From: Pseudomonadota bacterium | Lineage (GTDB): Bacteria; Pseudomonadota; Gammaproteobacteria; Burkholderiales; Sulfuriferulaceae | Length of the DNA stretch: 64,000 nt | Direction: 5' to 3' | Assembly: GCA_021801025.1 (NCBI GenBank) | Contig: JAJYYK010000012.1 | Span: 1-64,000 of the forward strand | Part shown: piece after piece, positions 13,356 to 23,350 of the stretch | Numbering within the stretch: position 1 is the stretch's first letter | Layout: each line of letters begins with the position of its first letter | The notes under the pieces: model-generated | What the model saw: the letters and a program-made list of their open reading frames with translations, nothing else | The model's database searches: none | What the model was told of the DNA's origin: nothing | Position numbers and translations under genes: made by a program

Positions 13356-13386
13356 GGGGTCAGTTCTAACATTGCAACATTTATTT
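13356..13386 (+). repeat. 31-bp dispersed repeat, left copy
   Basis: The repeat begins GGGGTCAGTTCTAACATT and ends in ACATTTATTT. It matches 14065-14095 at 29 of 31 positions in the same orientation. The two copies bracket the toxin-antitoxin pair. The opening GGGGTCAG resembles ends of small elements linked with REP-associated transposases; that link is from general knowledge and no transposase is present here. Confidence 0.75.
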
Positions 13387-13409
13387 AAAAGGCGCAAAGA
13401 TAAAACTGT

Positions 13410-13439
13410 TTGAAATCTGATTTAAGTTGGATTATAATC
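13410..13439 (+). promoter_or_regulatory. promoter and palindromic operator of the Phd/RelE-type module
   Basis: TTGAAA (13410-13415) and TATAAT (13433-13438) are 17 bp apart, close to consensus. The -10 box lies inside the perfect palindrome GATTATAATC (13430-13439), so antitoxin binding there would block the promoter, the usual autoregulation of such modules. Operator function is inferred. Confidence 0.7.
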
Positions 13440-13466
13440 AAATTTAATTTTACAGGAGGCGTCGCT

Positions 13467-13751
13467 ATGCTACTTGATCGTGCTGACCAAGCCATTTCAT
13501 CTACCGAACTTCAAAAAAATACCCGTGTACTGCTGGATCGAATCGCTGACGGCAGGCAAGACCGCTATGTCGTGATTCGTGATAACAAGCCTGCGGTCGT
13601 CATGTTGGCGACTGGTTATTACGAAGCGCTTATGGATGAGTTGGATGACCTGCGTATTGAGGCTGTGGCACGTGAGCGTTTATCTTCGATAGAACAAGTT
13701 AAATTAGTGTCACATGCTGATATGCTGGATCGTATTGGAAACTGTAACTGA
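13467..13751 (+). CDS. Phd/YefM-family antitoxin
   Basis: The 94-residue protein has the Phd/YefM N-terminal DNA-binding pattern: an initial SSTELQKNTRVLLDRI helix pair, then YVVIRDNKPAVVML, and a helical C-terminal part that would wrap the toxin. It should neutralise the downstream toxin and repress the shared promoter. AGGAGG (13454-13459) sets the start at 13467; the longer frame from a TTG at 13410 starts within the -35 box and is rejected. The stop overlaps the toxin start (TGATG). Confidence 0.9.
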   Translation: MLLDRADQAISSTELQKNTRVLLDRIADGRQDRYVVIRDNKPAVVMLATGYYEALMDELDDLRIEAVARERLSSIEQVKLVSHADMLDRIGNCN

Positions 13752-14041
13752 TGGCGTGGATCATTAACTATCATCCTGAGGTTGAGCGAGATTTAATTGC
13801 TATTGGTCGAGTAGACGCCAGAACGATTCTAAAAGTGATTGAAGTGCGTATTGCACAAGGCGAACCGGATAAATTGGGGAAATCGCTTGCGGGTCAGCTT
13901 TCGGGGTGCAGGCGAATCCGTACTGGACAAACAAGAATTGTTTATCGTGTCAATGACAACCGGATTGAAGTATTGATCATTGCAGTTGGAATGCGCCGTA
14001 ATAATGAAATTTACACTACGGCATCCGGAAGAGTTGATTAA
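13751..14041 (+). CDS. RelE/ParE-family toxin
   Basis: This 96-residue basic protein has the RelE/ParE fold pattern: YHPEVERDLIAI in the first helix, LSGCRRIRTGQTRIVYRV on the central strands and the C-terminal VGMRRNNEIY. The combination RRIRTG..RIVYRV matches the mRNA-interferase RelE/StbE branch more than gyrase-poisoning ParE, but the two are hard to separate by eye. It is translationally coupled to the antitoxin by a one-base overlap. The module lies between two 31-bp repeats and so looks acquired. Confidence 0.88.
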   Translation: MAWIINYHPEVERDLIAIGRVDARTILKVIEVRIAQGEPDKLGKSLAGQLSGCRRIRTGQTRIVYRVNDNRIEVLIIAVGMRRNNEIYTTASGRVD

Positions 14042-14064
14042 CATATAGTGAGCGAAAGGAGGTG

Positions 14065-14095
14065 GGGGTCAGTTCTAACATTACGACATTTATTT
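14065..14095 (+). repeat. 31-bp dispersed repeat, right copy
   Basis: It differs from the copy at 13356-13386 at only two positions in the middle. Together they delimit a 678-bp segment containing the toxin-antitoxin operon and its promoter. The VapC remnant begins directly after this copy. Confidence 0.75.
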
Positions 14096-14143
14096 GGGAG
14101 CAGCAATCGTGAGGAGAATGTTTGTTCGTATAAAAAAGTTGGA

Positions 14144-14353
14144 ATGTTGATGCAGATTGCGCCACTGACAGAAACCGTTGGTGAACATTACGGACAGATT
14201 CGTGCGTCGTTGCAGCGCATTGGACAGCCAATAGGTAATAATGATCTATGGCTCGCAGCGCATGCCCGTGCTGAAGCCTGGATTCTCGTGACCAATAATG
14301 AGCGTGAGTTTGTGCAGGTGGACGGATTGCAGGTTGAAAACTGGTGCCAATGA
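14144..14353 (+). pseudogene. VapC-type PIN-domain toxin, N-terminal part lost
   Basis: The ~69 residues visible correspond to the C-terminal half of a VapC ribonuclease: HYGQIRASLQRIGQPIGNNDL, then LAAHARAEAWILVTNNEREF and a GLQVENW end. The acidic residues in NDLWLAAHA and TNNEREF, normally part of the active site, are kept. The N-terminal strand with the first catalytic Asp (usually LLDTN), and the VapB antitoxin, are missing. The frame is open from 14048, but that upstream part is the 31-bp repeat and non-homologous sequence. It is most likely an inactive remnant cut by the repeat insertion. No gene is seen from 14354 to 14616. Confidence 0.8.
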
Positions 14354-15851: not shown

Positions 15852-17345
15852 ATGACAGCACGCCACGAACTTTTAGACTACACCACGCTGGATGCTTTGC
15901 GCATCCATCACCCCGCATGGCGCTTGTTGCGCTCAGATCACGCACCTCTTGTGGCCAGTTTTCTGCATCAGGTGTTTGTGGCGCCCAATGTGCGTGTCAT
16001 GTCTGCGGCGGATTTGGCAGAATCGCTGGAAGACGCTCTGTATGATTTGCGTGAACGCATGAGTGCTGAGGTGTTCCCGAAATCCGCGCTGGATTACCTG
16101 AATGACTGGGCCAGTCCGGAAAAGGGCTGGTTGCGCAAATTTTACCAGCAGAATACCGATGAAGCGCAGTTTGATCTCACTCCGGCGACAGAAAAGGCCA
16201 TTGCCTGGTTGGGCACGCTGGCTGAACGCAATTTTGTGGGCACCGAATCACGTTTGCTGACGCTGTTCGATTTATTGAAGCAAATGCAGGCGGGCAGCGA
16301 AGCCGATCCGGCCAAGCGTCTTGCTGAATTGCGCAAACGCAGGGATGAGATTGATGCCGAGATGGCGCAGGTAGCAGCGGGCGAGGTGCCTTTGCTTGAT
16401 GATGCTGCATTGCGAGATCGTTTTCAGCAGTTCACCCAAATAGCACGGGAGCTATTGACCGATTTTCGTGAGGTGGAGCACAATTTTCGTCAGTTGGACC
16501 GTCAAGTGCGTGAGCGCATTGCCTTGTGGGAAGGTGCGAAGGGCGCATTGCTGGAACAGATTATGGGCGAACGCGATGCGATTGCCGATTCCGACCAGGG
16601 GCGCAGTTTCCGGGCGTTTTGGGATTTTCTGATGTCCAGCAGCCGACAGGAAGAATTGACCGAATTGCTGGCCGTCGTGCTGGCCTTGCCGCCGGTGATG
16701 GCGTTGCGCCCCGATGCCCGCACCCGTCGCGTGCATTATGACTGGCTGGAAGCGGGCGAGCACACTCAGCGCACTGTGGCACAGTTGTCGCAACAATTGC
16801 GCCGTTTTTTGGATGACCAGGCCTGGCTGGAAAATCGGCGGATTATGGATATTTTGCACAGCCTCGAAGCCCATGCCGTGGCATTGCGCGACACTTCACC
16901 CACTGGTGCAGTCATGCATATTGCGGATTTGTCCGTCGACGTTGATCTGGCGATGGAACGTCCGTTGTATACCCCCAGTAGTAAACCCACCATTACCGCC
17001 TTCGACCTCGAAGATGGAGAAGACGTGGAATTGGATGCCAGCGCCTTGTTTATGCAGGTGGTGATCGACAAGCAACGGCTTACCCGCCATATACGTCACA
17101 GTCTGCAAGACCGCAGTCAAATCAGCTTGCGTGAATTGATTGACAAGCAAGCCTTGCAACAAGGACTGGCGGAACTTGTGGCTTACCTACAATTGGGCGA
17201 TGAAGCATTTCAAGCTGTGGTGGATGAAGGTACGGAAGACCTCATTCACTGGCAGGTCACCGGTGCTGATGACTGCGTGGCACACAAACGTGCACGCTTG
17301 CCGCGAGTAATTTTTATGTTGAAAGAAGTGAGTGTTGGTATGTAA
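15852..17345 (+). CDS. jetA: Wadjet defence protein JetA (DUF3375, kleisin-like subunit)
   Basis: JetA is the MukF/MksF-like kleisin of the Wadjet SMC complex, bridging the JetC ATPase heads and holding JetB. The 497-residue product has the DUF3375 layout: a helical N-terminal region (HPAWRLLRSDHAPLVASFL), EKGWLRKFY, RLLTLFDLLKQM, a long charged coiled-coil middle and a C-terminal winged-helix part ending LPRVIFML. The open frame reaches back to 15612 through the DMT gene; the ATG at 15852 gives the family N-terminus. In usual type I loci jetB follows at once; here 776 bp holding brnT and brnA intervene before it. Confidence 0.92.
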   Translation: MTARHELLDYTTLDALRIHHPAWRLLRSDHAPLVASFLHQVFVAPNVRVMSAADLAESLEDALYDLRERMSAEVFPKSALDYLNDWASPEKGWLRKFYQQNTDEAQFDLTPATEKAIAWLGTLAERNFVGTESRLLTLFDLLKQMQAGSEADPAKRLAELRKRRDEIDAEMAQVAAGEVPLLDDAALRDRFQQFTQIARELLTDFREVEHNFRQLDRQVRERIALWEGAKGALLEQIMGERDAIADSDQGRSFRAFWDFLMSSSRQEELTELLAVVLALPPVMALRPDARTRRVHYDWLEAGEHTQRTVAQLSQQLRRFLDDQAWLENRRIMDILHSLEAHAVALRDTSPTGAVMHIADLSVDVDLAMERPLYTPSSKPTITAFDLEDGEDVELDASALFMQVVIDKQRLTRHIRHSLQDRSQISLRELIDKQALQQGLAELVAYLQLGDEAFQAVVDEGTEDLIHWQVTGADDCVAHKRARLPRVIFMLKEVSVGM

Positions 17346-17457
17346 TACGCTATTGCAGGTAGCCTTCAGTAAGCTGAGAAGAAGTATAAATCAGCGCCAT
17401 TAAATCATTCAGATACGTGATTTTCAGGCTGGAACACCTTATTTGTTGATGATGACC

Positions 17458-17484
17458 TTGTTTTGTTGAGTATGTTTCTATAAT
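17458..17484 (+). promoter_or_regulatory. promoter of brnTA inside the Wadjet operon
   Basis: A perfect TATAAT lies at 17479-17484 with TTGTTT at 17458-17463 (15-bp spacing, short). The predicted transcription start is within one or two bases of the brnT ATG at 17493, and no ribosome binding site precedes it, so brnT mRNA may be leaderless. The promoter gives the module expression independent of jetA. Confidence 0.5.
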
Positions 17485-17492
17485 ATACAAAT

Positions 17493-17792
17493 ATGATTGA
17501 TCTGACTGTTATTGCCGATTTCAATTGGGATGATGGAAACGCCCGAAAGAATGAAAAACATGGCGTTTCTATGGCTGAGGCGGAACAGGTTTTTTTTAAT
17601 ATGCCACTTCTGCTTGTTGCGGATATCCAACACAGTTATCATGAGCCGCGTTATCACGCCTTAGGCAAAACAAATGAAGAGCGAGCTTTGCATATTACTT
17701 TTACCTTGCGAAATTCGGGAACCAGTATTCGCGTGATTTCTGCCAGAAGCATGCACCAGAAGGAGCGAAAATTTTATGAAAAAAACACTTAA
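17493..17792 (+). CDS. brnT: BrnT-family toxin
   Basis: BrnT toxins have a RelE-like fold and act as ribonucleases that stop translation. The 99-residue product shows the family pattern: FNWDDGNARKNEKHGVSMAEA near the N-terminus, then RYHALGKT and the C-terminal IRVISARSMHQKERKFYE, with the Arg and His residues expected at the active site. It starts at 17493 without a visible ribosome binding site. Its last 17 bases overlap brnA, whose AAGGAG site lies inside brnT. The pair is on the same strand as the Wadjet genes and sits exactly in the jetA-jetB junction. Confidence 0.92.
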   Translation: MIDLTVIADFNWDDGNARKNEKHGVSMAEAEQVFFNMPLLLVADIQHSYHEPRYHALGKTNEERALHITFTLRNSGTSIRVISARSMHQKERKFYEKNT

Positions 17793-18042
17793 AACTGTTC
17801 CGCACTTTGCCAGTGAGGATGAAGAGCGAATTTTTTGGGAAGCAAATGACTCCACAGAATATGTTAATTGGGCCACGGCACAGCGTGCGGTTTTGCCCAA
17901 TTTGAAACCCACTACCCAAATGATTTCCTTGCGTTTGCCCAGACATCTTCTTGATGCCATCAAGGCGGCAGCGAATTCGCGTGATGTACCCTATCAGTCA
18001 CTGATGAAAGTGTGGCTGCAGGAGAAGTTACACCAGCAGTAA
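17776..18042 (+). CDS. brnA: BrnA-family antitoxin
   Basis: The 88-residue protein has a variable N-terminus that would contact BrnT, including SEDEERIFWEANDSTEYV, and a C-terminal ribbon-helix-helix, TTQMISLRLPRHLLDAIKAA followed by VPYQSLMKVWLQEKL, typical of BrnA/CopG repressors. It should neutralise BrnT and repress the brnTA promoter. The AAGGAG at about 17760 sets this start. The stop is 79 bp before jetB. Confidence 0.92.
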   Translation: MKKTLKTVPHFASEDEERIFWEANDSTEYVNWATAQRAVLPNLKPTTQMISLRLPRHLLDAIKAAANSRDVPYQSLMKVWLQEKLHQQ

Positions 18043-18071
18043 TGGGCTTGAGCATGTCGAAATAGAAGGAA

Positions 18072-18113
18072 ATGATATTTGTCTGCAACGCATCACGTCA
18101 TTATTTTTGGTAA
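18072..18113 (+). CDS. possible 13-codon leader peptide before jetB
   Basis: An ATG at 18072 follows AGAAGGA at good spacing and opens a frame of 13 codons (MIFVCNASRHYFW) ending nine bases before the jetB ATG. jetB itself has no clear ribosome binding site, so translation of this small cistron could deliver ribosomes to jetB. A chance ORF is equally possible. Confidence 0.25.
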   Translation: MIFVCNASRHYFW

Positions 18114-18121
18114 AGTGTTTC

Positions 18122-18760
18122 ATGGAAGAATACGAACAAATTCCCACTTCTGCACTTAATGCTCATCTTTCCGTATTGCTCATCAGCCTGCTCAAGGGTG
18201 TGTTGTATCAGGAATCGGATGCAAAATTATGGGGTGCATTGCTGGGTTTGCAGGCCAGTGTGCGGGATTATGTGTCTGTGCTGGGTTTGGAATTGGTGCT
18301 GGATGAGGCGGAAGGATATGCGTTTTTGCGTGCCAAACCCGACACCGAAGACGACGATGATACGCCGAAACTTCCGCGTTTGGTGGCGCGGCGACCTTTG
18401 TCTTATCCGGTGAGCTTGTTGTTGGCGTTGTTGCGCAAAAAAATGGCTGAGTTCGATGCCAGCGGAGGCGACACCCGCTTGATATTAACCCGCGATGAGG
18501 TGGTTGAATTGGTGCGCGTGTTTCTGCCGGACGGTAGCAATGAGGCCAAATTGATTGACCAGATTGAAACCCATTTGAATAAAATTGTGGAATTGGGTTT
18601 CTTGCGCAAGTTAAAACCGGTCTCAGGCGGACAGGCAGCACCAGCCACTTTTGAAGTGCGACGTATTTTGAAAGCGTTTGTCGATGCCCAGTGGCTGGCG
18701 GATTTCGATGCGCGTTTGGCCGCTTATCATAGTAGTGTGGAAAGTGAACGCGATGAATGA
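18122..18760 (+). CDS. jetB: Wadjet defence protein JetB (DUF4194, KITE-like subunit)
   Basis: JetB is the MukE/MksE-like subunit, with tandem winged helices, that binds the JetA kleisin. The 212-residue product has the DUF4194 features: a helical first part with [18 protein letters not shown], the segment [22 protein letters not shown], and a winged-helix end ([13 protein letters not shown]) with [15 protein letters not shown]. An in-frame TTG start at 18107 exists; the ATG at 18122 is preferred, though neither has a good ribosome binding site. It overlaps jetC by eight bases, so the jetB-jetC-jetD part of the operon is tightly coupled. Confidence 0.9.
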
Positions 18761-21700
18761 GCTGCAAAGTTTGGGTTTTGATTTTGTCGCGGATGACACC
18801 TTATCCGGTTTTCGCCTCAAACGCCTGGAAGTGTTTAATTGGGGCACCTTTGATGGTCGGGTGTGGGCCTTGCAACTGGAAGGTAAAAACGGCCTGTTAA
18901 CCGGTGATATTGGTTCAGGCAAATCCACCCTGGTGGATGCGGTGACCACCTTGCTGGTGCCTGCCAACCGTATTGCCTATAATAAGGCTGCGGGCGCGGA
19001 CAACAAGGAACGCTCACTGCGTTCTTACGTGCTGGGACATTACAAATCGGAACGCAATGACATGACAGGCGGCGCCAAGCCGGTCAGCTTGCGTGACCAA
19101 AACAGCTATTCGGTGATTTTGGGCGTATTCTATAACGCGGGTTATGACCAAACCGTCACGCTGGCGCAGGTGTTCTGGATGAAAGAACCGCAGGGTCAGC
19201 CAGCACGATTTTATGTGGGATCCGAGCGCGAGCTGAGCATTGCCACAGACTTTGCTCATTTTGGCACAGACATGGCGCAGTTGCGCAAAAAATTACGCGG
19301 TTTGGGCGCAGAGATTGAAGACGGTTTCCCCAAATATGGCGCGTGGTTCCGCCGCCGCTTTGGCATTGAAAACGAACAGGCATTGGAATTGTTTCACCAA
19401 ACGGTGTCGATGAAGTCGGTGGGCAATCTGACTGCCTTTGTACGCAGTCATATGCTGGAACCCTTTGATGTCAGTCCACGCATTCAGGCCCTGATCACGC
19501 ACTTTGACGATCTGAATCGCGCGCATGAAGCGGTGCTGAAAGCCAAGCGCCAAGTGAATTTGCTTGTCCCTTTGATCGCCGAGTGCCAGATACACGCTGA
19601 CTTGCAGGAAAAGGTGATGGGCTTGCGCAAGTGCCGCGATCAATTGCAATATTATTTCACCCAATTAAAGCAAAACCTGCTCGAACAGCGCAGCCGCCAA
19701 CTGCAAGAAGAGTGGCGCAATGTGGATGCACAGGTCGCGCGTTCAGAAACGCGGCGCGATGAACAACGCACTTTGCTGGATGAGCTGAAACGCGCGGTGG
19801 CCGACAACGGCGGCGACCGTTTGGAACGCCTGGCTGCCGAGATGAAACACAAGGAAATAGAGCGAAGCAGGCGCCAAAGCAAAGCCCAACGTTATGCGTT
19901 GCTGGCGGGGCAAGTCGATAAAACGATGCCTGAAAATGAATTGGACTTTCTGGCGCAACGTGACCAGTTGATGAGCTTGCGTGAAGACGGCCGTGAACGT
20001 ATCGCCGATTTGAACAATGCCATCACTGAACAGGGCGTGCTGTTACGCCAGGGCAAGTTGGAGCACGACGCGCTGCAAGCGGAAATCGACAGCTTAAAAA
20101 TGCGGCGCAGCAATATCGAAGACCAGCAAATTAAAATTCGCACCGCGTTGTGTCAGGCTTTGGATTTGTCTGAAGAAGACATGCCTTTCGCAGGCGAATT
20201 ACTGCAGGTGCGCGAAGATGAACGTGAGTGGGAGGGAGCGGCAGAACGCCTGTTGCGCGGGTTCGGTTTGTCGCTGTTGGTGCCGGATGCGCAATATAAG
20301 GCGGTGGCGGGATGGGTAGACCGCAGCCATCTCAAAGCCCGTTTGGTGTATTTTCATGTGCGATCGGGACGCAGAGGTGATGCGCCGAGTTTACACGCCG
20401 ATTCTTTGGTGCGTAAACTGGCGGTTAAACCTGACTCCCCCTTTTATGATTGGCTGGAACGCGAGCTGTCTCACCGCTTTGATCTGGCTTGCTGCGATAC
20501 GCAGGAACAATTTCGTCGCGAAACTCGCGCCCTGACCCAGACAGGGCAAATGAAAGACCCCAATGGGCGTCACGAAAAGGATGACCGGTACAACATCGCC
20601 GACCGCAGTCGTTATGTATTGGGCTGGACGAATACCGAAAAAATTGCCGCGCTACAAACCAGCTTGCGACAGATGGAAATGCAATTGGCTGAAATTGCCA
20701 GCCGAATCGCCACCTTGCAAAGTGAATATAAAATACTGTCAGCACGGCTGGAAGCGCTCAGCAAGCTGGAAGAATTTACTGATTTTGAAGAGTTGGACTG
20801 GACGGCGCTGGTGACGGAAATTGCCACGCTCAGTGAGGAATTTCACCAACTGGAATCGGCTTCAGATGTGTTGAAACAACTCAGTCAAAAGCTGGCTGAA
20901 GCCCATGCAGCGTTGGCCAAAACGGAAGCTAATTTATCGACACAACACGATAAACGTTCAAAACTGGATGGCTCTCAGTCGGAAACTCAAGAGGCATTAG
21001 TCGACACCCAGCGTCTTCTCGCTGAAGCCAAAGTAATGAACATCCTGGATGAAAACCTGTACCCCGCGCTGGATACCCTGCGTTCCGAAGCTTTGGGCGA
21101 ACAGGCTATCACGATTAAAAACTGTGATGAATATAGTTCAAAAATGCGCACCTGGTTACAGGACAAGCGCATTGACGCCGAAGACAAAAAAATTAAAACG
21201 TCAGGTGATAAAATCATCAAAATGATGATGGGATTCAAAGAGCAGTTTAAACTGGAAACGGCTGAATTCGATGCCAGTATCGAAGCGGCTTTTGAGTACC
21301 AGGCATTGCTGGAGCAACTGGGGCGGGATGATTTGCCGCGTTTTGAAGTGCGGTTTAAAGAATTGTTGAATGTGAACACCATCAATGAAATTGCCAATTT
21401 TAATGCCCAGTTGTCGCGCGAACGGGAAACCATCAAAGAGCGTATCGCACGTATCAATGAATCGCTGACCAAAATTGATTACAATGCAGGGCGTTATATT
21501 GTGCTGGAAACCCAGGCTGCGCTGGATGCGGACATTCGGGATTTTCAAACAGAATTGAAGGCGTGTACCGCCAATTCATTGACCGGTTCGGAAGATGCGC
21601 AGTATTCGGAAAGCAAGTTTCTGCAAGTGAAATCCATCGTTGACCGGTTTCGCGGGCGCGATGGACAGTCCGAGTATGACGCCCGCTGGACGGCGAAAGT

Positions 21701-22157
21701 CACCGATGTGCGCAATTGGTTCGTGTTCGCTGCCAGTGAACGCTGGCGTGAAGATGATGTGGAATATGAGCACTATTCCGATTCGGGTGGTAAATCGGGT
21801 GGGCAGAAAGAAAAACTCGCCTACACCATTCTGGCCGCCAGTTTGGCCTACCAGTTTGGCCTGGAATGGGGCGCTGTGCGTTCGCGCTCATTCCGCTTTG
21901 TGGTGATTGACGAGGCATTTGGGCGAGGCTCAGATGAATCCGCACAATATGGTCTGCGCCTGTTTGAACAACTCAATTTGCAACTGCTCATTGTCACGCC
22001 TTTGCAGAAAATTCATATTATTGAACCCTATGTGTCGCATGTGGGTTTTGTACACAACGAACAGGGCCGCGCATCGAAACTGCGCAACGTGAGCATTGAA
22101 GCCTACCGGGAAGAAAAAGCCAGCCGGCAAGTGCAAGAAAGCTTACAAAGCGCATGA
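18753..22157 (+). CDS. jetC: Wadjet defence protein JetC (SMC/MukB-like ATPase)
   Basis: JetC is the SMC motor that, with JetA and JetB, extrudes DNA loops and recognises small circular DNA such as plasmids. The 1134-residue protein has an N-terminal Walker A (GDIGSGKST, residues 51-59), two long heptad-rich coiled coils flanking a hinge at about residues 490-620, an ABC signature segment ([12 protein letters not shown], about 1010-1021), and a C-terminal Walker B with catalytic Glu ([10 protein letters not shown], Asp1053-Glu1054). All motifs needed for ATP hydrolysis are intact. The frame is open from 18678, but homology starts at the ATG at 18753. The stop overlaps jetD (ATGA). Confidence 0.95.
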
Positions 22158-23350
22158 ACTGGACCACATCTGCCGGGCTGCGCGCTCAAGTGCAAAAGTT
22201 ATGGGATCGCGGTGATGTATTGATCGCGTTATTGAGCGATGAACCGTTGTTTCCCAAGCGGCTTACCCTCAAAGTACCCAGCTCGGCGGAGATGTCGGAT
22301 CATTTTGAGGCGGTGCGTGAATGGCGGAAAGCACTCAGTTTGTTGCGGTACTGCCGGGTGGAACAGCGCGAATTCAATCATCGGGTCCTGGGCACCAACG
22401 TCATGCCCCAAGCCGCTTGGATAGACAGTGTGGAAGCGGCCTGTGCGTGGGTGGGTAAAACCAGTGAAGTGGAACAGTTTCGCCATCTTATCACCATCAC
22501 ACAACAACGCCAACCGGCTTTATTGTCATGGCTGGCCAAACGGCCTTTGCGCGCACTGGAGCTGGCGGAGCAATGGGAACCACTGCTCGACGTGGTGATG
22601 TGGGTGCAACAACACCCGCGCCCCAATATTTACCTGCGTCAAGTCGATATTCCCGGTGTGCACAGCAAATTTATCGAAGCCCATCGGGCCGTTTTGGCAG
22701 AGTGGCTGGATTTGACCTTACCCGCAGAATGTATCCTGTCGCAACACACTGGCGTGACACAATTCGCCGCGCGGTACGGCTTTCGCGACAAACCTGTCCG
22801 TTTGCGCTTTCGCGTACTTGACCCCAATATCATTGTCCTGCCCGACGTCCAGTGTCCCGATATGGGGTCAATTTCCGATATCAGTTTGGATGCCGAGAGC
22901 TTTGCGCGGCTCAGACTACCCGTGCAAAGGGTATTCATTACCGAAAACGAAACCAATTTTTTAGCATTTCCCCGTGTCAATACCAGCATGGTTATCTTTG
23001 GAGCAGGCTATGGCTGGGAAGCGCTGGCTCAAGCTCGCTGGTTGAAACACTGCGACATTCACTATTGGGGCGACATCGACACCCACGGTTTTGCCATCTT
23101 GAACCAACTGCGCACACACTTTGAACACGTGCAATCACTGCTCATGGACAAGGGGACTTTGTTGGCGCACGAGGTTTTTTGGGGGCAAGAGGATCAACCA
23201 ATACAGCACGATTTACCGGGTTTAAACACCGCCGAACGTGAATTGTATAATGACCTGCGCGACAACCGTATCAAAAACGGGTTACGGCTTGAGCAGGAAA
23301 GAATCGGATATGCATGGCTGAAGAATGCGTTGTCCAAAGTATTCGGGTAA
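22154..23350 (+). CDS. jetD: Wadjet defence nuclease JetD (DUF3322-DUF2220, TOPRIM)
   Basis: JetD cuts the DNA that the JetABC motor has reeled in. The 398-residue protein has the N-terminal DUF3322 arm domain and a C-terminal DUF2220 domain related to topoisomerase VI subunit A. Its TOPRIM acidic residues are visible: Glu264 in [13 protein letters not shown] and the Asp307/Asp309 pair in [10 protein letters not shown] conserved HEVFWGQE segment follows. All metal ligands I can see are present, so the nuclease should be active. It overlaps jetC by four bases and is followed 38 bp later by an ADP-ribosylglycohydrolase homologue on the same strand. Confidence 0.94.

Follow-up and report, generated by a model that had tools for sequence, protein, structure and literature searches.

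The DNA stretch analyzed here (64,000 nt, positions 1 to 64,000 of contig JAJYYK010000012.1 of the Sulfuriferulaceae assembly GCA_021801025.1; hereafter the window) carries a type I Wadjet operon, jetABCD, in which a toxin-antitoxin (TA) pair of the BrnT-BrnA family lies between jetA and jetB (Table 1). By open reading frame (ORF) reading, the six genes jetA-brnT-brnA-jetB-jetC-jetD are all on the forward strand, all open, and all full length. An earlier note on this DNA had described jetA to jetD as present and intact, and profile and motif searches bear this out. JetA scored 505 bits against DUF3375 (Pfam) and 723 bits against JetA1 (PADLOC), JetC scored 1617 bits against JetC1 across residues 5 to 1126 (PADLOC), and JetD matched JetD_C and DUF3322 (Pfam) as well as JetD1 (502 bits, PADLOC); all four Jet proteins matched their type I PADLOC models near full length. 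The Walker A and signature motifs of JetC are intact, as are the ITENE and GDID motifs of JetD, which we take to be its active-site motifs. The search pattern for the JetC Walker B motif gave no match, yet FVVIDEA is present in the translation. The complete brnT-brnA pair that the note had placed between jetA and jetB is likewise there, at 17493-18042: BrnT scored 81.5 bits against PF04365 (cut-off, 34.5) and BrnA 107.4 bits against PF12441 (cut-off, 28). Against the NCBIfam equivalog model BrnA reached 52.4, under the cut-off of 60, and an NCBIfam search with BrnT gave no match.

Table 1. Features of the interrupted Wadjet operon, in window coordinates
Feature	Coordinates	Strand	Description
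jetA	15852..17345	+	DUF3375, PADLOC JetA1; 497 aa; last 8 residues unlike relatives
brnTA promoter/operator block	17457..17492	+	Predicted; kept in 5 other aligned genus copies
brnT	17493..17792	+	Putative ribonuclease toxin by BrnT family (PF04365); 99 aa
brnA	17776..18042	+	Predicted CopG/ribbon-helix-helix antitoxin (PF12441); 88 aa
jetB	18122..18760	+	DUF4194, PADLOC JetB1; 212 aa
jetC	18753..22157	+	SMC-like ATPase, PADLOC JetC1; 1134 aa; Walker A at residue 51, SGGQ at 1015
jetD	22154..23350	+	DUF3322 + JetD_C, PADLOC JetD1; 398 aa; ITENE and GDID motifs

The jetA stop and the brnT start are separated by 147 nt, and the brnA stop and the jetB ATG by 79 nt, so that 776 nt lie between jetA and jetB. 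Frames overlap at brnT/brnA (17 nt), jetB/jetC (8 nt), and jetC/jetD (4 nt); as the earlier note stated, the first junction alone has been opened. The A-B-C-D order and the common strand are kept, whereas strict contiguity is not. Because the four proteins are what defines type I Wadjet, this separation is an accessory deviation and the operon keeps its membership despite the gap. The locus lies well inside an 81-kb contig of an assembly of 2.38 Mb that is 99.96% complete; with the contig ends this far away, a contig-end artefact is unlikely. The G+C content of brnTA is 44%, versus 50 to 54% for the jet genes. The window operon is a complete type I Wadjet carrying an intact brnT-brnA pair between jetA and jetB.

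Other jet loci were collected from named genome contigs (the best 80 of 457 relatives), genus relatives, 369 genomes of the class (42 JetA matches), 399 genomes of the order (55 matches), and one plasmid. From the class and order genomes most full-length matches were taken, some fragments and contig-end matches being left out. The 160 candidates, less 10 duplicates and 29 loci with JetA below 40% identity or no JetA, gave 121 loci including the window. In these, jetA and jetB usually abut, in agreement with the earlier note: over 113 junctions, the window's included, the median gap was 11 nt and the 90th percentile 50 nt (a value of -657 nt at L017 arose as an artefact when the alignment continued past the jetA stop). 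Besides the window, gaps of at least 200 nt were seen at L116 (638 nt, with a Uma2 fragment), L054 (474 nt, DUF4351), and L119 (295 nt, frames of at most 76 aa). The same threshold was reached at four of 108 jetB-jetC junctions (L117, 2894 nt; L199, 1126 nt; L080, 517 nt; L084, 220 nt), and wide gaps among 103 jetC-jetD junctions occurred at L060 (454 nt, an N-terminal piece of DUF1016) and L133 (408 nt, in which the one frame scanned had no family). Most jet operons in the census have no internal gene insertion. In one distant locus dropped from the census (L134), 860 nt between jetC and jetD hold a reductase-like gene (ApbA_C, 21.6 bits versus a cut-off of 22.7).

Only the window's own junction, 1 of the 113, carried brnTA. 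With brnT and brnA of the window as queries, tblastn gave no relative among those other jet loci that had been collected by then, and a BrnT profile made from eight genus proteins, the window's among them, matched in 1 of the 121 jet loci, again the window. Across the 369 class genomes, 23 had a BrnA relative, 42 had a JetA match, and 6 had both (G000, G069, G132, G201, G263, and G391); the two stood on one contig in G000, the genome of the window, only. These counts, 1 of 113 junctions and 1 of 121 loci, give no support to a conserved brnTA-Wadjet system. The earlier note had proposed that brnTA could guard the defense operon or act as its back-up, and had named a prevalence of loci without brnTA as a finding that would speak against this; such loci are indeed the rule, and the proposed role is unsupported. 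Among the loci examined, brnTA between jetA and jetB is lineage-specific.

The probable point of insertion is at the 3′ end of jetA. In the relatives shown, JetA ends in IF(V/M)R, whereas the window protein ends in IFMLKEVSVGM, its last eight residues being new, and the alignment of the window with its sister stops at 17323, right after IFM. This sister and nearest relative, L015 (same contig as G004:C46), has a JetA 95% identical to that of the window and DNA 91% identical. It diverges at the same breakpoint and leads into a DUF29 gene (L015:4766-5194), not brnTA; about 490 nt of its contig remain after jetA. Since the sister holds DUF29 at the very same breakpoint, the junction behind jetA has turned over. 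DUF29 occurs in 4 of the 18 genus genomes. Neither jetB nor jetC was detectable in G004, where jetBCD is either lost or unassembled. Between the window and this sister, jetA has a dN of 0.024 and a dS of 0.385, and the low dN/dS ratio (∼0.06) indicates that the gene is under purifying selection. With jetA and jetB both full length, the truncation that the note had also named as a finding against its proposal is absent.

Two further candidates at this junction were rejected. For a spacer common to the window and L015 behind the breakpoint, 39.6% and 34.4% of 1000 shuffles did as well as the real sequences; for a remnant of the old jetA-jetB linker before jetB (best local score of 21 over 84 junctions), 77 of 300 shuffles did. 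The distance from the DUF486 gene to jetA is shorter in the window than in L015, and a jetA promoter may have been deleted there, but the single promoter-like site upstream of jetA lies inside the DUF486 gene, occurs in both the window and L015, and is matched by as many sites under chance. An imperfect 21-nt inverted pair was also seen at the ends of the insert (17324-17344 and 18131-18151, 15 of 21 positions complementary). It was reached by 5 of 2000 shuffles of the end stretches, which had been picked after the pair was seen. The pair is weak and may be due to chance; given this post hoc choice, and because its right arm lies inside jetB, it was not counted as an element end.

Upstream of brnT, a putative block with a −35-like box, a −10-like box, and an operator is conserved across the five other aligned genus copies, and it is this conservation that upholds the note's claim of a promoter belonging to brnTA itself, despite a miss in the consensus scan. 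Within the block, an imperfect palindrome, AGTATGTT-N5-AATATACA, at 17469-17489 covers part of the −10-like box and stops 3 nt short of the brnT start codon. Among the 24 other brnA loci whose upstream stretch could be read (L176 could not; the window was counted apart), 15 have the form TGTATATT-N5-AATATACA at a near-fixed distance before brnT with a score of at least 14 of 16, and the remaining nine score at most 9. Shuffles of the same upstream stretches reached 14 in 3 of 10000 cases, at least one of them among the window's own 400. The window operator itself scores 14, with a left arm that matches the consensus at 6 of 8 positions. Taken alone, in an A+T-rich upstream stretch, it does no better than the best of its own 400 shuffles; because these match its score, its assignment draws on its position and its relatives. 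On these grounds an autoregulatory operator at the brnTA promoter is predicted. In ribbon-helix-helix (RHH) proteins the beta-strand reads the operator. The strand of the window BrnA is TTQMISLRLP, against mostly [ST]TKTISLRLP elsewhere; its Met is unique among 26 sequences, and its Gln recurs in L194. The deviations in strand and operator may reflect either a joint change or mere drift.

The same brnTA clade was found once each in G011, G014, G015, G016, and G017, among seven genus genomes given (these five, G000, and G004, which had none). The window brnT is 68 to 77% identical to these five copies. JetA is absent from four of the five carriers, and G015, the fifth, has its jetA on a separate contig. 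The frames around brnTA differ among the genus copies, except for some common to G011 and G014 (judged by eye), and homology among the aligned copies runs from the promoter block (window position 17457) through the brnA stop and no further. Because this predicted promoter/operator block is kept in five genus copies elsewhere, brnTA appears to be a self-contained cassette. BrnT as a family is present in 15 of the 18 genus genomes, in 14 of them above the cut-off. A second, distant BrnT, 37% identical to that of the window, is encoded in the same genome (G000:C12:211508-211741). On Variovorax sp. SRS16 plasmid 3 (L167:3001-5401), a close relative of brnTA follows a site-specific integrase and forms a TA array together with neighboring VapB-PIN and MazE-MazF-type pairs. 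In viral contigs, brnA gave 21 pattern matches and jetA 7, none of which was confirmed, and relatives there were rejected.

TA modules of other families were found at related jet operons. In L117 (genome G333), two nucleotidyltransferase (NTase)-HEPN pairs lie between jetB and jetC (L117:2627-5051), along with an antisense frame that has a Uma2 domain (114.6 bits) at its end; the HEPN matches (E values of 0.0002 to 0.0024) are below the Pfam cut-offs, and the pairs are MntA/HepT-like mainly by their arrangement. At the same junction in L199 (G578), a ParE toxin follows a small frame without a Pfam match, and jetC lacks residues 198 to 871. L080 and L084 have a DUF29 insertion in common between jetB and jetC (L080:8118-8642), decayed in L084. 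A scan of flanking ORFs no longer than 330 aa (129 out of 153 picked, the longer ones being left out; the window was not included) returned the Phd/YefM antitoxin as the commonest family, with 9 of 129. Of 99 loci, 12 (L016, L017, L018, L019, L022, L023, L034, L067, L077, L201, L213, and L222) have a Phd antitoxin gene 39 to 50 nt past jetD; the 99 comprise 98 whose sequence extends 300 nt or more beyond jetD, and L034, which is cut by a contig end. A ParE toxin gene comes next in 10 of the 12; the other two, L018 and L034, end before the ParE position. Pfam confirmed seven of the Phd antitoxins (four plus three) and six of the ParE toxins. Remnants of phd-parE were seen in L074 and L035, a pair upstream of jetA in L086, and a weaker antitoxin match on the other strand in L033. 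The jetD-phd spacer contains a conserved palindrome-like block, and the phd-parE modules probably bring a control site of their own too.

The window also has a phd-parE pair outside the jet operon, at 13467-14041 (Phd, 29.3 bits, just under the cut-off of 29.8). It is flanked by direct 29-nt repeats (13357-13385 and 14066-14094, 93% alike), and the repeat occurs twice in L015; a repeat-associated element may have moved the 13357-14094 segment as a cassette. A further ORF, at 14048-14353, matches the C-terminal half only of a PIN domain (profile positions 66 to 119 of 120) and is likely a VapC remnant.

We consider it probable, although far from assured, that a mobile, self-sufficient brnTA cassette inserted at the 3′ end of jetA as a selfish or neutral passenger, with all genes left intact. 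The note had itself offered a neutral insertion as an alternative, and selfish or neutral insertion is now the best reading. The cassette would have landed at the jetA end of a complete type I Wadjet operon, replacing the last jetA codons and parting jetA from jetB while every gene stayed intact. It would then be kept by its own addiction effect, in that loss of brnTA would free BrnT, and not by a Wadjet-specific function. A scan of the window listed no terminator-like site between 17345 and 18122; because the insert has none, transcription of jetBCD could come from two sources, read-through that starts upstream of jetA and the BrnA-repressed brnTA promoter, and these genes are now probably read in part from the latter. 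Antitoxins such as BrnA are usually depleted under stress. Were BrnA degraded, Wadjet expression might rise, as a side effect and not as a demonstrated function, and deleting the stretch would free BrnT and so might protect the operon incidentally. This explanation draws on the anatomy of the locus, its intact frames, the conserved operator, the absence of brnTA from the relatives examined, and its presence at other sites in the genus. Three points weigh against it: the sigma-70 consensus scan listed no promoter before brnT; the coupling of expression between brnTA and jetBCD comes from a sequence survey alone; and TA modules recur within type I jet operons or just after them, at L117 and the 12 Phd loci, more than pure accident would lead one to expect.

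The recurrent association of TA modules with related jet operons could prove more important than the brnTA insertion. At its broadest, it would mean that type I Wadjet repeatedly recruits TA families (BrnTA after jetA, NTase-HEPN after jetB, and Phd-ParE after jetD) as interchangeable partners that hold the operon or shield the cell from plasmid toxins, the BrnA-controlled promoter in the window also timing jetBCD; we regard this as a speculative and on the whole unlikely generalization. A narrower proposal, which we find less likely still, is that the TA pair was selected to hold the Wadjet operon, such that loss or silencing of the locus would let the labile BrnA decay and free BrnT; brnTA here and Phd-ParE behind jetD elsewhere would then be interchangeable guards. 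The intact brnT and brnA of the window are consistent with such a guard, as are the two NTase-HEPN pairs of L117 and the recurrence of Phd behind jetD. In a FastTree phylogeny of JetA with 121 rows, the Phd trait requires at least 6 changes, versus an average of 11.6 for shuffled labels, and at least 4 of the 6 are forced by well-supported branches. The upstream flanks (344 to 2950 nt, 11 of the 12 Phd loci) are unrelated in nearly all pairs, the exceptions being L018 and L022, with 1.6 kb in common, and two other pairs with 103 and 44 nt; the downstream flanks, comparable in just three loci, are unrelated as well. However, the same ParE is common elsewhere in the order: it was found in 50 of the 399 genomes at an E value of 1e-15, and it lies behind jetD in just 4 of them (G529, G507, G536, and G491), while two more carriers have it about 12 kb or less from jetA (G645 and G519) and 44 have it on other contigs or lack JetA. 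The wider link between TA modules and Wadjet thus stands in part, in that other modules do recur, and is weakened in part by the spread of ParE; the counts are of jet loci alone and claim no enrichment over other operons. Further against selection for a guard, brnTA is found at a jet operon once in 121 loci, most of the operons examined have no internal insertion, and jet operons decay within the genus, where JetA is found in 6 of the 18 genomes and JetB in 3.

This decay invites another explanation, that brnTA is an early inactivating insertion that uncoupled jetA from jetB translation. Broken or lost operons are indeed seen in the genus: jetA has an internal stop and jetC is in two pieces in G003, a jetA piece abuts a jetD remnant in G001, jetA is in two pieces in G005, and jetB and jetC are missing from what is assembled of G004; in L199, the ParE insertion accompanies the broken jetC. 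In the window, in contrast, none of the four jet genes is shortened, their motifs are intact, and jetA is evolving under constraint, and we give inactivation little credence. Four other loci (L042, L050, L090, and L093) have jetA without a jetB, jetC, or jetD match in the fetched locus, although 2.2 to 6 kb follow, and they group on the JetA tree with L063, whose operon is complete; orphan JetA may serve some purpose without the other three proteins.

Least probable of all is that BrnA made together with Wadjet neutralizes BrnT left behind by cut plasmids and lets the host survive: BrnT relatives do occur on 269 plasmid records, in Fervidacidithiobacillus caldus small plasmids are reported to carry brnTA and every strain to have type I Wadjet (PMC12375680), and an anti-addiction role has been described for TA modules on chromosomes (PMC12548467), but the window retains a full toxin gene and not an antitoxin alone, and BrnA relatives are found on fewer plasmid records (48), reach no more than 66% identity, and, for those listed, are on plasmids of at least 74 kb.

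The window operon resembles type I Wadjet, the JetABCD anti-plasmid structural maintenance of chromosomes (SMC) system, in its four proteins, their order, and their single strand; it differs in that brnTA parts jetA and jetB, which elsewhere nearly abut. The TA pair resembles the BrnT-BrnA type II module in having the toxin first, overlapping frames, an RHH antitoxin, and a predicted palindromic operator at the promoter; the Brucella module is described as autoregulated by a tetrameric complex, and catalytic residues have been named (PMC5086665). The window copy differs in lying inside a defense operon and in its off-consensus operator left arm and BrnA beta-strand. CreTA, the toxin-antitoxin RNA guards of CRISPR-Cas, is likewise TA linked to defense and is called an addiction module, the defense effector itself repressing the toxin (PMC9458426). 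In the window, by contrast, BrnA is a separate protein antitoxin that is not known to depend on Wadjet, and the linkage is unconserved: conservation of the TA pair at the defense locus across lineages, as for CreTA, is not seen for brnTA at jet loci. In the literature searched, with subscription journals mostly outside reach, no TA module was described as part of a Wadjet operon; the same search found no paper on Wadjet together with plasmid addiction and no description of a six-gene form, jetABCD-phd-parE.

Wadjet destroys plasmids, and plasmids use TA modules to punish cells that lose them. A TA pair inside an anti-plasmid operon poses the question of how the host survives after destroying an addictive plasmid, and the six-gene jetABCD-phd-parE arrangement is a recurrent natural case of the same question. 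If the insertion of brnTA is incidental, it shows a defense operon tolerating a cassette between its genes, an operon that may thereby come under a foreign promoter.

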